DNA of 64,000 nucleotides, from positions 158,653 to 222,652 of the forward strand of contig WFMF01000294.1 in assembly GCA_011033025.1 (NCBI GenBank), in the 5' to 3' direction. The first letter of the stretch is position 1; the number at the start of each line of letters is the position of its first letter. This stretch comes from Beroe forskalii. Taxonomy: Eukaryota; Ctenophora; Nuda; Beroida; Beroidae. Shown piece by piece: positions 40,739 through 48,435 of the stretch. A program made the position numbers and the translations under genes. The notes under the pieces were generated by a model. The model was not told the origin of the DNA, made no database searches, and worked only from the letters and a program-made list of their open reading frames with translations.

Positions 40739-41004
40739 TTTTAAACTTTACAACACTACTTTATACAATCAAATTTGAGGAACCCATGTTGTGAGGATTG
40801 TTGTGGTGAACGGTTGGGGCTATACAGCGACAAAACAGACTGTTGTATAGCCTTCGCTGTCATAGCTCTCTGATCAATCTGGTGGGAGTGCATTGGGCGC
40901 CAGTGTAAGAGCAGTTTGAGTACTGCCCTCCCTTCCTCAAGTTTGCTATTTTCAGATTATATTGCGTGGGAGAGCTGCTCATTGTCAACATAGTGTAAAG
41001 CATC

Positions 41005-43143
41005 ATGGACAATGATTCATCAGAAAAATCCCTCAATCATCCTCATGTAGTAAGTGGCTCATGTCAAAGATGCTGTTTCAATGGAGATATTGTGAATGAA
41101 ATTGTATGTTGTTCTCTCTGTTATGAACCATTTCATGCTCTTTGTAGGGACAAAAGAGGTAGTTATACAACCACATCTATTTTCTCAAAGTCTTTCTTTG
41201 AACAATTCCAATCCCTGTCTGCCCATTATGGACCTAATAAGGATCGCTGGGGTCAGATAATCTTCATTTGTGACTCCTGCAATACAAAGTATTCAAATGG
41301 TACTGACCAGTACTTCCCTAAGATCAGTCTTGAAAATAGTCAAGAGGTAGTTGTGGATAGGTGTACCTCTCCTGTTAATACACTAAAAACTGCTACCCCA
41401 TCTTCAATTGAAATTAGCTCACATGGGACTCAGACTTTGGTATCTGGGAACTATGTCAATGGATTTGACTCAGATTCAGAATCCAGTAAATTATCTGAGG
41501 ATAGACTTGATGACCATTTTATTGAGGAAGGTAATTCAATTTTGAATGATGTCAAATCTTTGCTCAAAATCAATCACCAGATTCTTTCTAGCATTGAATC
41601 ATTGAAGGAACAATCAGATACAACCAAAGAAATAATCTGTGAACAAATTTCTGGCATTGAAAATACCTTGAAGGAAACATTTCAAAGTCCAACTGGAATT
41701 ATTGACTCAGAAAAGCTCACCAAATCAATCACAGATCAGCTGAACTATCCAACCATTATCAATAATATTCAGAGTAACTCTGAAAATGTCCAGCAAATCA
41801 AAAATGACTCAGGTTTCAACCCTTTGTTACAAAAATGTAAACCATACACTGCCATACATAATGAGTTTCTTGACGAATCTTTGACAAATTCTTTAAATGG
41901 TTTCTTAAGCAGATGTGAAGGATTCAAAACTGTCAAATCCAATGGCAATAAAAGCAGTAGAGATGTTCTCTATTTTGGTGAATTTTCCTATAGATATGGT
42001 GCCACAACCCATGAAGCAAAAGAAATACCTACTGAAGTCCAGGCTGTAATAACACAGATAAATGCTTTATACCCCCAAATGATGCTTAACTCTTGTTTAA
42101 TTACCCGTTACAACTCAGGGAAAAATGTATGTCCCCTCCATAGCGACAATGAGGCATTTATTGGTCCCAAATCAAGTATTTTCACCCTGTCCATTGGCTG
42201 TAAACGTGACATGAATTTCATTTCCAAAGATGGGATTAATTCATCATCTATTGAGCTAGCTAATAACAGCCTATTATCTTTCACCAGAGCTTCCCAAGAA
42301 ACCTGGCAGCATGAAATTCTACCCTGTAATAGTGAAACCACACGCTACAGCCTCACATTCAGATTGCTTGCTCCTTACTATCTCAATAGCACCATGATAG
42401 TAGGTGATTCCAACACTGATCATATCAATTTTGGTAGTGGGAGAAATAAACTTGGAGTGTGGCTTCCAGGTGAGCGACTTAAAGCAGGACGTATTGCAAA
42501 CATTCCTAATCCTTCCCAACTACATACCCCTTTCAGAAACATGGTCATTCATTGTGGAGTTAATGACCTCAGAGCCCAAAATCATCTCCCTATTCCAGTT
42601 TTAGCAAAAAACTTGAATGACAAATGTAGTGCTCTAGCAAATGCATTCCCCAAGATGAAAATCCACCTAAGTCATATTCTTCCTACTAAGAATGCAGGTC
42701 TCAATGCCATGGCCAATGAATTAAATAGATTCATCAATGGCATTGCTGAGCTATATCCTAATGTGACTGTTATTCCACATACAAATATGACAGATCATAA
42801 TGGTAGGCTTGATGTTAACTTAGGCAGACATATTGCTGATGGTACACCACTTCATCATGACCCTGTGCATTTGGGATCCAAGGGTATTGCCCTATTTTGT
42901 TTAAACATTAAGAAGAGCATCATTAATAAGAAGAAAACTTCTGGACGTATAGAAGTCCACTCTCCTCCAACTACTAACACACAACACCCTTACTGGTTCC
43001 CAAATCAGAACTACAGACCAAGCCTCAGAGCTCCAATCCCAACAAATAACCCTTGGACAGGAGACCACAGCTGGAATTTTGATGCAAGACCAACTCAACC
43101 CTTCTCTGCCCATAACTTTAATAATGATGGATATCAATCATAG
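41005..43143 (+). CDS. LINE ORF1: PHD-like finger + AlkB-type dioxygenase + SGNH hydrolase
   Basis: 712 residues. Domain 1 (about 20-92) is a C4HC3 PHD-like finger: C20-C23, C36-C39, H44-C47, C89-C92. Residues about 170-230 look like a coiled coil. Domain 2 (about 280-455) matches the AlkB 2-oxoglutarate/Fe(II) dioxygenase fold: TRYNSGKNVCPLHSDNE gives iron ligands H379 and D381, H436 is the third ligand, and R-Y-S-L-T-F-R (447-453) is the RxNxTxR 2OG-binding motif with Ser for Asn. Domain 3 (about 463-635) is an SGNH/GDSL hydrolase: GDSN with nucleophile S469, HCGVND for block III, and DPVH with D619 and H622. Known AlkB proteins repair alkylated nucleic acids; known CR1-group ORF1 esterases have uncertain roles. 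A role in RNA or cDNA repair or RNP transport is inference. All catalytic residues are present. It overlaps ORF2. Confidence 0.92.
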   Translation: MDNDSSEKSLNHPHVVSGSCQRCCFNGDIVNEIVCCSLCYEPFHALCRDKRGSYTTTSIFSKSFFEQFQSLSAHYGPNKDRWGQIIFICDSCNTKYSNGTDQYFPKISLENSQEVVVDRCTSPVNTLKTATPSSIEISSHGTQTLVSGNYVNGFDSDSESSKLSEDRLDDHFIEEGNSILNDVKSLLKINHQILSSIESLKEQSDTTKEIICEQISGIENTLKETFQSPTGIIDSEKLTKSITDQLNYPTIINNIQSNSENVQQIKNDSGFNPLLQKCKPYTAIHNEFLDESLTNSLNGFLSRCEGFKTVKSNGNKSSRDVLYFGEFSYRYGATTHEAKEIPTEVQAVITQINALYPQMMLNSCLITRYNSGKNVCPLHSDNEAFIGPKSSIFTLSIGCKRDMNFISKDGINSSSIELANNSLLSFTRASQETWQHEILPCNSETTRYSLTFRLLAPYYLNSTMIVGDSNTDHINFGSGRNKLGVWLPGERLKAGRIANIPNPSQLHTPFRNMVIHCGVNDLRAQNHLPIPVLAKNLNDKCSALANAFPKMKIHLSHILPTKNAGLNAMANELNRFINGIAELYPNVTVIPHTNMTDHNGRLDVNLGRHIADGTPLHHDPVHLGSKGIALFCLNIKKSIINKKKTSGRIEVHSPPTTNTQHPYWFPNQNYRPSLRAPIPTNNPWTGDHSWNFDARPTQPFSAHNFNNDGYQS

Positions 43144-46100
43144 AAGAGAGACTTGTCAGATATGTTCAAAACAAATATATTTTCACCATAGAGTACTGAT
43201 ATGTAATTTTTGTTCTGAAATTGTGCATAATAAATGTGGCAAACACAACTTTACATATCTTCAAATCAATGATCAGTGGTCCTGTAACAAATGTACTCAA
43301 AAAAGTAGCAACAAATATCAACCCTTTGAGTCTATATGTTATAACAAATACATATCTGAAGATCCTGAAGCACATGAAGGAATTGAGAAAATCAAAGCTT
43401 GTCTTTCTAATTGTGAAGTCATTCCCAAGAAAAAACTCAGTGAACACTGTTTTGGTTTCCAAAATACACCATTATCAATTTTCAGCAATAATATAGATGG
43501 TATGTCACAAAATTTTGATCCCTTACATGCTCAATTATCAACAATTTGCAACAAATTTGACTTCATAGCACTATCTGAAACAAACATACATGAAGAACAT
43601 AAAAGTCTTTACCAAATACCTGGATACATATCTCATTTTAGCTCAAAGTTTCTAGACAAGCATAAAGGGAGTGGGTTAGGTATTTATTACAATGAAAACT
43701 TCACAGTTGAACCTATAAATAACTTAGAAATTTGTACTTCAGACATTGAATCTTTATTTATCAAAATTTGTAATGATGATCAACCCCTTGTCTTTGGAGT
43801 TATATATAGACCACCTAGTGGGAACATAGCAAATTATTTTACCAATCTTGAACAAATCCTGAATCAAGTATCCTCTTTCCAAAATACAATTATTTGTGGC
43901 GACTTTAACATAAACTTACTGAAAAATGATTCAAAGAAGACCAAGTTTGAAAATGTTCTGTTTGGTAATTGCTTCACCCCTACTATTTCTTTACCAACTC
44001 ATGAAAAACCAGGCTGTGAGGCATCCTGTATAGATAATATTTTAGTCTCCAACATTGATAATGTCATAAGTACTGGTGTAATACATGAAATTAAAGTATC
44101 TCATCACAGCCCTAATGTTTGCTTCTATGATTTTCAGATTGATGGTGAGGATGAGCTTAAATCTTCACCTCAATTTGACTATTGTGAAAGTAACATCATT
44201 GAGTTCAATGACAAGCTCCTCAAAAAACTAACCTTAGATGAATATGCTACTGATGAAGAAGGATTTAATCAATTTGCTAAATGTGTACATAGTACAATGG
44301 ATGAATGCTTTAGAGTTGACTCGTCACTAGTACAAAAAACAAAGCGGAACAGATTAAGCAATCCTTGGATAACCAATGGTCTGATCAAATCAATCAATTT
44401 TAAAAATTTCATATATGAGAAATGGAAACGGAGTAAAAATAAGAAAAACAAACATGGTAATCAAGAAATTTATGAAAAGTACAAGAAGTACAGAAAACGG
44501 CTAACTAGTCTCATAAAAAAGGCAAAGAATAAATTTTATTCTGACAAGTTTGATATGTGTAAAGGTAATGGCAAGAAAACATGGGATTTGATTAATGAGT
44601 TAAGGGGTAAATGTAGAAACAAATCAAAATCATCCTTTATCATAAATGGTACACTAATTAAGGAAAGGAGAGTAATAGCTAATGAATTTAACAAGTACTT
44701 TACATCAGTTGCCTCTATTCTTAATGAAACAGCCTCTATAACTATGCATGGAAACATTCCAATCAACTCTTTGCCTGATTTTACTCATTACTTGGGAAGA
44801 AGAATTAGTGACTCTATGTTTTTTGAACCCTGTACAGAAGAAGAGCTAAGTAAAATTATTCAAAACCTTGAAAACAATAAAGCCAGTGATATCCCTGCCA
44901 GAGTTCTAAAAAGTTGTTCTAGTACCCTTATCCCATATCTAACTAACTTTTACAACTCCTTTATTGATTTAGGAATCTTTCCAGACTGCCTTAAAATTGG
45001 ACAGATAACACCAATCTTCAAGAAAGGTAACCCACAACTACTACAGAACTATAGACCAGTCTCTACCCTTCCATGCTTTGGAAAATTATTTGAAAAGGTC
45101 ATATACACTCGTTTATACAACTTCTGTATCTCCAAGAATATATTGTATGAAAATCAGTATGGCTTCAGGAGTTACCACTCAACATCTAATGCTATAAACT
45201 ACTCAGTTGATAAAATCATATGCAATGTAGAGAATAAAAATCATGTCTTAGGGATTTTTATAGACTTAAGTAAAGCCTTTGATACAATAAGTCATGATAA
45301 ACTACTACATAAGCTTGAGCATTATGGTATCAGGGGGAAACCAAATGCTCTTTTGGAGAGTTACATATCGAATAGACAGCAGTTAACCCAATTCAATGGA
45401 TATAAATCAAACATGGACTCTGTTAAATTTGGAGTGCCCCAAGGCTCTGTCTTGGGTCCCCTCCTATTCTTAATTTATATTAATGACATCACAAATAGTT
45501 CAAAACTTGGCCACTATGTTATGTTTGCTGATGATACAAATATATTTGTAGTAGGTAGCACAGAGAATGAAGTATATAATAAAGCTAACCGTTTGCTAAG
45601 ATCACTTAATCTTTACATGCTTAGCAATCAACTGCATATCAATAATGAAAAATGTGTCTACATGCATTTTAGGCCTCAGTTGAATAATGTCGAAAGACTC
45701 AACTGTGCACGTACTAGGATTGTTGGAAGTGAGCACCAACTCTTCTTGAATAATAGTAAGATTAGGAAAACAAATGCTGCAAGATTCCTTGGAATCATAA
45801 TTGATGACAATCTAAAATGGGATATGCATCTGGAGCACCTTGAACAAAAACTTAATAGTGCTATAATAACAATAAAGAGAATTAAGAAATTTATACCTAA
45901 TGAGCATTACATCAAGATATATCATAGCCTTTTTGCTTCTCACCTTTCTTATGGTATATCAGCATGGGGGTCTTCATCCAAATCAAAACTAGACAGGATA
46001 TTCTGTATCCAAAAAAGGTGTATTCGTCTACTCTTTGGCAACAAACTCAATTTTGATCATGCAGAATTTTACAGAACATGTGCTAGAGTAAGAACAATTG

Positions 46101-46555
46101 ATGAGCATGTAGCTCCCAAAAACTTTGAACTTGAACATACTAAACCATTGTTCAGTGAGTACAGACTTTTAACTGTTTATAATTTGCATAAAATGTTTTT
46201 ATTGAATGAAATTTACAAAATTCAAAAATTTAGGAGTCCTATCTCATTAAATAATTTTCTTCATAAAACATCAGAAATGGCTAGAATGGGTAGAAAAAAC
46301 AATCTTATCTTACCATGCTATCGCCTCAATATTGCAAGCCAATTTTTATATGCAGGTATCTGTGCATGGAACCAAATAAATAACTTTTACTTATGCAGGA
46401 ATGATTCTGGAACCACTGACAATAAATTTTTAATTGACTTATCTTTACCACATTTTAGAGCTAAAAGGAATTTCAAATCTTTCTTGCTTAACCTACAACA
46501 GTCAGGAAGCCCGTTATTATGGGAAAAACACAACTCCCTGATATTATTTCCATAA
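43124..46555 (+). CDS. LINE ORF2: zinc finger + APE-type endonuclease + reverse transcriptase
   Basis: The open frame begins at 43079, but tandem ATGs at 43124 and 43127 overlap the ORF1 stop by only 20 nt and are a likelier start. Numbering from 43079: a PHD-like finger at about 26-72 (CQIC, CNFC, HNKC, CNKC); APE-type endonuclease at about 130-350 (SNNIDG, SETN with E167, YRPPSG, GDFNINL, SHHSP); reverse transcriptase at about 585-890 (NYRPVSTLP, IDLSKAFD with D729, GVPQGSVLGPLLFLIYIND, FADD 816-819, FLGIIIDDNLKW), then a C-terminal thumb-like region. There is no RNase H. Oddities: the usual endonuclease SDH motif reads SHH, and the RT-0/1 motif KxxGxDxIP appears shortened to KASDIP. The frame is otherwise intact. 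Confidence 0.95.
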   Translation: MMDINHRRETCQICSKQIYFHHRVLICNFCSEIVHNKCGKHNFTYLQINDQWSCNKCTQKSSNKYQPFESICYNKYISEDPEAHEGIEKIKACLSNCEVIPKKKLSEHCFGFQNTPLSIFSNNIDGMSQNFDPLHAQLSTICNKFDFIALSETNIHEEHKSLYQIPGYISHFSSKFLDKHKGSGLGIYYNENFTVEPINNLEICTSDIESLFIKICNDDQPLVFGVIYRPPSGNIANYFTNLEQILNQVSSFQNTIICGDFNINLLKNDSKKTKFENVLFGNCFTPTISLPTHEKPGCEASCIDNILVSNIDNVISTGVIHEIKVSHHSPNVCFYDFQIDGEDELKSSPQFDYCESNIIEFNDKLLKKLTLDEYATDEEGFNQFAKCVHSTMDECFRVDSSLVQKTKRNRLSNPWITNGLIKSINFKNFIYEKWKRSKNKKNKHGNQEIYEKYKKYRKRLTSLIKKAKNKFYSDKFDMCKGNGKKTWDLINELRGKCRNKSKSSFIINGTLIKERRVIANEFNKYFTSVASILNETASITMHGNIPINSLPDFTHYLGRRISDSMFFEPCTEEELSKIIQNLENNKASDIPARVLKSCSSTLIPYLTNFYNSFIDLGIFPDCLKIGQITPIFKKGNPQLLQNYRPVSTLPCFGKLFEKVIYTRLYNFCISKNILYENQYGFRSYHSTSNAINYSVDKIICNVENKNHVLGIFIDLSKAFDTISHDKLLHKLEHYGIRGKPNALLESYISNRQQLTQFNGYKSNMDSVKFGVPQGSVLGPLLFLIYINDITNSSKLGHYVMFADDTNIFVVGSTENEVYNKANRLLRSLNLYMLSNQLHINNEKCVYMHFRPQLNNVERLNCARTRIVGSEHQLFLNNSKIRKTNAARFLGIIIDDNLKWDMHLEHLEQKLNSAIITIKRIKKFIPNEHYIKIYHSLFASHLSYGISAWGSSSKSKLDRIFCIQKRCIRLLFGNKLNFDHAEFYRTCARVRTIDEHVAPKNFELEHTKPLFSEYRLLTVYNLHKMFLLNEIYKIQKFRSPISLNNFLHKTSEMARMGRKNNLILPCYRLNIASQFLYAGICAWNQINNFYLCRNDSGTTDNKFLIDLSLPHFRAKRNFKSFLLNLQQSGSPLLWEKHNSLILFP

Positions 46556-48435
46556 GTTATATTAATCTGATTAAATTCTTGATAATTTACCATCCTGAAG
46601 TAAAATTACCACTTATGTGATGCCTCACATAATTATCCCCAAAAAGCCAAAAAAAGGTTCAGCCTATTTGCATCCAAATGACAAATGATAATTACCACAC
46701 TGCATTAATATTATGATACCTTATTATTAAGTTATTAGGCTATTTATTAATTTTATTAATTCTAATTTAAATTATCTGTATTTATTAATTTCAATTATAT
46801 TTATTTTTATCTGTATATGAAGTTGAGTGCTGGGTCACTTAAATGGGCCCCTTAAATGAACCTTGGGTGGATCTAAAGCTACAATCAATTCTGTTAATCC
46901 TTTCTACTGTACATATATTTAGTTGGATCAGGGGTGATTCTCAAGTCCTTCGACAGGCATCTCCTGCAGCAGCAACTCAACTTAATTTTTGATTTTGATT
47001 TAATAAGATTTATTTCTCTGGGAGTTATTCCTGGTGATTTGCCCAAGGTTCTACATTACTTTATTAACTGCTTATTCAGTGGTATTTTTATAATATTATT
47101 CACAGCTTATACTGTTGTATTTTTAAAATATGTTATGTTACTCTGTTTCAGTTTTTATCTACTACTGTTTTAAGTTAATGGTGCAATAGCACTTTCTGTT
47201 AGCGAATTTTCTATTTATTGCTTTGAATTTTTCATGACATGCAATATATTAATTTAAATTGCTTAGAAATATTATGATGTACTGATTCTTCAATTTGTAT
47301 CTGAATGAATTTATGCAAATGCATGATCGGTCGCTGCTGTAAAATATAAAATTATGTTGTTTTATTAAAGATTGTCTGTCATTACTACAGTCTTATGCAT
47401 AAACTAACTAGTAACTAGCACCATCTTGAGATTGAAAACTCTCATATGGGGGAAATATAATTCTGGAAGGTTTTTAGCTGCTATCATGATTGGGTGGTAC
47501 ACAAATGGCAAATGAAATTTCAAGAGATACCCATACTATTATCAAACCAAATATTTTAAAATAAGGTAAAATTCAAATTTCATATCCAAGAATCAAAGAT
47601 TCCACCCAAACCTTTGTTCAACCTCAATTGTTAGAAAATTTGACACTAAATATAAAAAAAGACCCAAGGCTGAATCCTCCATTACTCCAATATATTATAT
47701 TAATTACAATAAATTATTCCATTATGAAGAAGAAATACCCTTATAACCCCATGAAATTGCATCTGACATGAATCTGCTTGATTTTAAATTTTTTTTATCT
47801 GTCCTTAATAATCTGAATGATTGATTTATTTATTTCTATATTAATAAAGGAATTAAAATTTTCGTTTTACTACTAATATTTTGTTTTACTAAATTTGAAA
47901 TTTACAGTAGGTAGATTGTAAAATAACCATCACCCCATCAAGTACTTACTATTGGTTTGTACCTACTATTTTTTACATTTCTTGGTATTCTGGAACACTT
48001 TACTCAGTAATAGACATAAAAGTTATCATTTGTAGTGGATGGTAAGACCTGACAAACCAATCCCAACTCATATTGTAGTCAGAGAAGTACAAGAAGAATT
48101 TCTGTGATCCTGTGAGTATGACATGTGAGCACTTGCTCTTTGTTCTACATTACCTTTCTTTTCATGTGGTAAAAATTTGACATATGCCATATATTTACCA
48201 AAATGTGTAGAATAATAATTGAACATCAATCATCTACAATATGCTAATATGTTTGATATGATTGATCTTTGCAATAAAATAGGTAATCAATGCAAAAAAT
48301 AGGTAATAAATGCATTTTCTTCTTCTTCTTCTTCTTAAATGCATTTGTGTATTCAATATATACAATATATCATCAATACAATATATCAATACAATATATC
48401 ATCAAACAAAAAACAAATAAAAACAAAGTATTCAG
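46556..48435. other. LINE 3' UTR and AT-rich flank
   Basis: Very AT-rich. The first ~830 bases are likely LINE 3' UTR. No other genes seen up to the first FOXP exon; a (TTC)n run lies at 48318-48336. Confidence 0.5.

Follow-up and report, generated by a model that had tools for sequence, protein, structure and literature searches.

The closest described relatives of the element reported here are the Type IV LINE ORF1s, exemplified by zebrafish ZfL2-1, in which a coiled or linker region leads into an SGNH esterase and an ORF2 with APE and RT comes downstream, and the PHD-bearing ORF1s of the CR1/L2 group, which our element resembles in having PHD-like fingers at the start of both ORF1 and ORF2. 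For L2 subgroup 5, the available portion of a LINE ORF1 survey reports a PHD, probably at the ORF2 start (PMC4120745). A retrotransposon that encodes an AlkB-family protein is likewise on record: in the orchid Ty3/Gypsy elements, which are plant LTR elements, the AlkB occupies an additional ORF and is reported to be close to m6A RNA demethylases (PMC9289625, available text). AlkB domains also occur in other RNA-based parasites, the plant RNA viruses of the Alphaflexiviridae, Betaflexiviridae and Closteroviridae, for which an RNA repair function has been postulated (as cited in the same text of PMC9289625), and an SGNH hydrolase has been captured by another kind of mobile element, a platyfish Helitron (PMC4021074, available text). 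An AlkB-bearing Gypsy element of orchids and LINEs with an esterase or a PHD were already on record.

We analyzed a 64,000-nt stretch of the genome of the ctenophore Beroe forskalii (contig WFMF01000294.1; hereafter the window), which holds a LINE whose ORF1 combines these parts differently. Unlike the Type IV and ZfL2-1 ORF1s, it has an AlkB domain between the coiled or linker region and the esterase, plus an N-terminal finger; unlike the PHD-bearing CR1/L2 ORF1s, it joins its finger to two enzymes in one ORF1; and unlike the orchid Ty3/Gypsy protein, its AlkB is assigned to the ALKBH2/3 class and sits inside a LINE ORF1. The plant RNA viruses differ in lacking reverse transcription, and the platyfish Helitron in not being a LINE, with no occurrence of "AlkB" in the available text of PMC4021074. 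The original prediction could not assign an AlkB demethylase in a retrotransposon ORF1 to a described family. Among the papers listed by full-text searches and judged by title or abstract beginning, a coverage that leaves out most subscription papers and Repbase Reports, none describes AlkB in a LINE or this architecture, and the survey of ORF1s nowhere uses the word "oxygenase" in its main text (PMC4120745).

Architecture and ends of the element

The features of the element, all on the forward strand, are given below; other loci of the genome carry L numbers and contigs carry C numbers.

40739..40779, +: spliced-leader-like 41-mer at the element 5' end, TTTTAAACTTTACAACACTACTTTATACAATCAAATTTGAG
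40780..41004, +: 5' UTR, 93% identical to L036 (191 bp) and 91% to L031 (199 bp)
41005..43143, +: ORF1, an open frame of 712 aa with PHD-like finger, coiled or linker region, AlkB, SGNH and tail
41062..41280 (aa 20-92), +: C4HC3 PHD-like finger, by residue pattern, with weak Pfam matches in relatives and none in the window
41530..41910 (aa 176-302), +: coiled or linker region, conserved, with a profile of its own
41935..42381 (aa 311-459), +: AlkB 2OG-Fe(II) dioxygenase, by PF13532 and by profile to ALKBH3/ALKBH2
42388..42924 (aa 462-640), +: SGNH esterase, by profile to 4c1b, with S469, G518, N520, D619 and H622
43079..46555, +: ORF2 of up to 1158 aa with PHD-like finger, APE and RT, overlapping the end of ORF1
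46556..47370, +: 3' UTR, ending where homology to L062 and L063 stops

The prediction of a single ORF1 fusing a PHD-like finger, an AlkB and an SGNH hydrolase was confirmed in the identity of the domains, in their residues and in the fusion itself. Its reading of the element as a LINE was also right, since ORF2 carries both APE and RT (Pfam RVT_1, 4.2e-36; Exo_endo_phos, 1.7e-6); a second PHD at the ORF2 start scored 0.0019 and 18.6 bits, under the cut-off of 24. The finger of ORF1 stands as a residue pattern, C20-C23-C36-C39-H44-C47-C89-C92, present in 11/11 close ORF1s including that of the window. Pfam support for it is weak in the relatives (best 0.0069 in a scan at E 10 of three of them) and absent in the window, where the ORF1 finger has no match at E 1; NCBIfam gave no match to ORF1 at E 0.01. 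A target-site duplication was looked for at the element ends (3' end near 47370), and none was found. Rfam returned nothing at gathering score over the entire window, and a sub-threshold SNORD33 match on the element (E 0.034) was rejected. Window positions 40770-40968 are 91-93% identical to L031 and L036, while protein identity over the AlkB segment is only 58% (L031) and 52% (L036); either exchange of the UTR or strong constraint on it would account for the high 5' likeness.

The 41-mer at the 5' end recurs at 536 genomic places with up to two mismatches, against 0 for a reversed-pattern control. An exact 40-mer of the leader followed by GTA occurs at 61 places, often clustered in the manner of SL RNA genes. 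Five such places (L050-L053 and L058) have approximately 80-100 nt in common, with a GTAAGA donor, hairpins and what we take, from its motif, to be an Sm-like site; one leader-gene-like place folded with a z of -3.3. Upstream of the window leader there is no homology to close elements. In the literature searched, the complete leader sequences matched no paper, and matches were confined to pieces of 10 and 11 letters. The leader is whole in the window and in L034, has two mismatches in L035 and is partial in L032 and L038, and L036 retains 5 nt of it, possibly by chance. Elsewhere it lies 0.1 kb upstream of ORF1 (L016), 1.3-1.7 kb upstream (L023 and L013) or on the strand opposite to ORF1 (L014). 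We infer from this pattern that the 41-mer is a spliced leader that LINE transcripts acquire by trans-splicing, it seems before they retrotranspose, and that is copied along with them when they insert. Retrogenes bearing a leader have been described in dinoflagellates (PMC12014239, available text). Head-to-head leader palindromes were also seen, at L056, L057 and L059 and at C234:96710-96792; at the first three the inversion extends to the inner or outer flanks, and such palindromes perhaps arise by snap-back reverse transcription.

The AlkB and esterase domains and their possible role

PF13532 (2OG-FeII_Oxy_2) matches ORF1 aa 327-453 with E 4.5e-18 and 66.6 bits, over a cut-off of 31.2, and the AlkB profile search that the original prediction proposed as a check was therefore positive. 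The predicted residues H379, D381, H436, R447 and R453 proved correctly placed and are invariant in 27/27 aligned ORF1s; more broadly, HxD, H and both Arg (RxxxxxR) are kept in 35/35 AlkB domains examined, 29 of them from LINEs. Loss of HxD/H/R from most copies, named beforehand as counterevidence, was not seen in these 29 LINE copies, which were chosen by AlkB score.

The neighboring hydrolase is below the Pfam cut-off as a single sequence (GDSL lipase, aa 508-627, 17.2 bits versus 32.9). A 23-row SGNH profile finds as its best solved structure 4c1b (E 7.4e-10), which is the esterase of zebrafish ZfL2-1 ORF1p (PMC3905857, available text). S469, G518 and N520 are invariant in 27/27 ORF1s; of the 23 rows extending into the last block, all 23 have the His and 22 have the Asp. 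These results bear out the SGNH hydrolase claim, and the predicted SGNH fold with its Ser, oxyanion Gly/Asn and Asp-x-x-His characterizes the ORF1 as Type IV (esterase).

To what class the AlkB belongs is indicated by a 27-row profile compared with solved structures, which matches ALKBH3 (5.6e-25) and ALKBH2 (6.5e-25) about equally, followed by E. coli AlkB (2.2e-10), ALKBH8 (1.5e-9) and ALKBH5 (0.0012). By profile, the LINE AlkB is of the ALKBH2/ALKBH3 class, that of m1A/m3C repair, and far from ALKBH5. Because of this class, repair of alkylated RNA or cDNA fits, and the explanation we favor, to which we give about an even chance, is that of a LINE ORF1p with an ALKBH2/ALKBH3-class demethylase placed between the coiled or linker region and the esterase, where it would clear m1A and m3C that block target-primed reverse transcription (TPRT). 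ORF1p would coat the element RNA, and perhaps also the first cDNA strand, and the AlkB would strip N1-methyladenine and N3-methylcytosine from that RNA or cDNA. These marks prevent base pairing and would thereby block TPRT, and their removal would let ORF2p read through; the esterase and the PHD-like fingers would have the roles proposed in other LINEs (membrane attachment and chromatin contact). The substrates of ALKBH3 include m1A and m3C in both ssDNA and RNA, as well as m6A in tRNA (PMC5304225, available text). According to the available text of PMC12140624, the R2 RT used in OTTR is impeded by modifications, and AlkB treatment removes m1A/m3C and improves the capture of 3' tRNA halves; the capture of intact tRNA is changed only modestly by the treatment, which counts against the explanation we favor.

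The m6A activity of ALKBH3 bears on another reading, in which the AlkB would serve as an epitranscriptomic eraser that takes m6A or other regulatory marks off element RNA and so evades silencing by host readers. The AlkB protein encoded by the orchid Gypsy element, with m6A demethylase activity in vitro (PMC9289625, available text), is a further point in its favor; nevertheless, the profile is much closer to ALKBH2/3 (~6e-25) than to ALKBH5 (0.001), and we consider this reading unlikely. Somewhat less likely again is action on target DNA or new cDNA, in which ORF1p, tethered to chromatin by its PHD-like fingers, would repair or demethylate the TPRT strands; that ALKBH2 scores as high as ALKBH3 and that PHD-like fingers are present in both ORF1 and ORF2 are consistent with it.

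The LINE AlkBs depart from the family at the Asn of the N-x-Y motif, which is Thr in 28/29 of them and Ser in the remaining one (L022); L030 additionally has Phe in place of the Tyr. The Asn is kept in 6/6 non-LINE AlkBs (four without SGNH and two Helitron-type), and the substitution is a derived trait common to LINE AlkBs. This Asn is presumably a 2OG contact in AlkB. Since Thr/Ser stands at that position, the activity of the LINE AlkB is not to be taken for granted and could be lowered or changed; the Asn is not strictly family-defining, the other 2OG residues being kept, and its loss weakens the claim of activity rather than that of homology. The same substitution, in 29/29 LINE copies, argues for an AlkB that has been retained as a module for binding nucleic acid or for structure and that works poorly or differently as an enzyme. 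The esterase kind next to it, that of ZfL2-1 ORF1p, is itself a slow enzyme (PMC3905857, available text). However, every copy examined has the full iron triad and both Arg, which binding alone would not demand, and we rate such a module slightly below even the action on DNA.

AlkB copies across the genome

Demethylation of the element's own template, as favored above, concerns a domain that is widespread in this genome. The 216-Mb assembly was searched with PF13532 and the best 150 of 189 candidates were scored; all 150 were over the Pfam cut-off, giving at least 150 genomic AlkB matches, host genes and Helitron-type copies included. A stop lies inside the match in 10/150 of the scored copies, and 140/150 have none. 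We examined 20 longer loci and 10 close ORF1s, picked by AlkB score, a choice that favors intact copies. ORF1s with the order finger, coil, AlkB and SGNH are found in the window, in L026 and L029-L038 and, further removed, in L022 and L023, where the alignment reveals the fingers and Pfam also matches that of L023. Finger-less AlkB-SGNH ORF1s occur at L009, L010, L012, L013, L015-L018, L020, L021, L024 and L025, and L014, L027 and L028 have AlkB, linker and SGNH before an ORF2 with paired fingers. Pieces of APE and/or RT accompany 17/19 longer LINE loci, that of the window included, and are absent at L013 and L016. Far from belonging to one odd element, the ORF1 AlkB occurs genome-wide in several LINE lineages.

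The genome has at least 147 RT matches among the matches listed (146 of 2601 first-look candidates were scored), and at least 16 of the 33 with a long ORF2 (≥800 aa) have a same-strand AlkB at the expected upstream distance, again among the matches listed, a proportion that counts against the favored explanation. Eight of the 17 long-ORF2 matches without a listed AlkB were inspected (L039, L040 with L045, L041-L044, L047 and L049): the AlkB is broken or truncated at L045 and L047, an SGNH ORF without AlkB is present in the stretch examined at L044 and L049, and neither AlkB nor SGNH was matched at L039, L041, L042 and L043. No AlkB-less sister LINE with an intact ORF1 was proved among these eight loci. 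A tree of 35 AlkB domains separates the LINE and Helitron-type copies from L001-L004, the four AlkB ORFs that lack SGNH; support for this split is moderate (87/78), and the branches are long. A chance motif, an assembly join or a one-off capture of a host gene has a negligible probability in our estimate and was rejected on the number of AlkB matches; the similar distance of AlkB from RT in the long-ORF2 copies and the separate grouping of the LINE AlkBs further argue against it.

Several other ORFs came up in these searches. L003 is a host ALKBH2 (E 2e-64 to ALKBH2). L001, L002 and L004 are AlkB ORFs without SGNH and possibly a host ALKBH3-like expansion; L001 and L004, the two of them that were compared, score best to ALKBH3. 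L048 (C1:1716700-1719000) is an ORF of 406 aa that has SGNH but lacks AlkB, and SGNH in frames of 396-406 aa on C314, C287, C394, C132 and C1091 may belong to the same family. In non-animal collections, tblastn against viral contigs and genome contigs found no relatives, and the phage search gave a single weak AlkB match, covering 23% of the query at 28.8% identity.

Both enzymes also occur together outside the LINEs. At C847:365676-374500 (L019 and L046), a 2026-aa frame comprises SGNH, AlkB, a Pro-rich part, DUF6570 and Helitron_like_N, and is followed by a PIF1 helicase ORF; from its domains this element is a Helitron with the two enzymes of the LINE ORF1 in reverse order. The 1169-aa frame of L011 (C225:189000-197500) also puts SGNH ahead of AlkB and has a long tail rich in Pro. 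Its AlkB groups with that of the Helitron in the 35-domain tree, and Helitron_like_N had no match on contig C225 among the matches listed.

Selection, inheritance and implications

Conserved catalytic residues had been taken to suggest selection, and dN/dS over the AlkB segment had been proposed as the measure. By the Nei-Gojobori method, with pairs that are not independent, the window's family gave 0.052 (L032/L033, dS 0.34) and 0.079 (L026/L029, dS 0.59); these values, at dS below 1, support purifying selection. Ratios of 0.069 (window/L026), 0.074 (window/L029) and 0.095 (L034/L035) come from pairs near saturation (dS 1.1-1.3), and the remaining six pairs computed for the family are saturated. 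Outside it, L017/L021 gave 0.13, and six pairs of L016, L018, L024 and L025 gave looser values of 0.067-0.371, with few changes counted, which also weighs against the favored explanation. The linker has a higher dN than either AlkB or SGNH in 11/11 pairs.

Compared with the finger-less lineage (L009, L012, L015, L020 and L024), the window element shows identities of 33-37% in RT, 33-37% in AlkB and 24-31% in SGNH. RT and APE trees, built from this genome's own elements, split the finger-less from the window lineages at 100/100; the AlkB tree has the same main groups, with their order unresolved there. An AlkB inherited along with the RT since the common ancestor of these lineages would fit such a pattern, the alternative being exchange of whole ORF1s, which has been reported for such elements (PMC4120745, available text).

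If the AlkB does act on the element's own template, LINEs would encode their own template-repair enzyme, and in one host at least, base alkylation or RNA methylation would truly hinder retrotransposition. Such elements would serve as a natural experiment for studying how far RNA methylation restricts reverse transcription, and would pair AlkB with RT in nature, as RNA-sequencing protocols do artificially. We tentatively propose, at rather less than even confidence, that LINEs captured an ALKBH2/3-type enzyme a single time, at a point preceding the divergence of RT lineages whose identity today is only 33-37%, and have since retained it within the machinery of their own replication, as selfish elements that would repair their template before copying it. 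Since a Helitron in this genome carries both AlkB and SGNH, mobile elements in general may use the pair as a toolkit.
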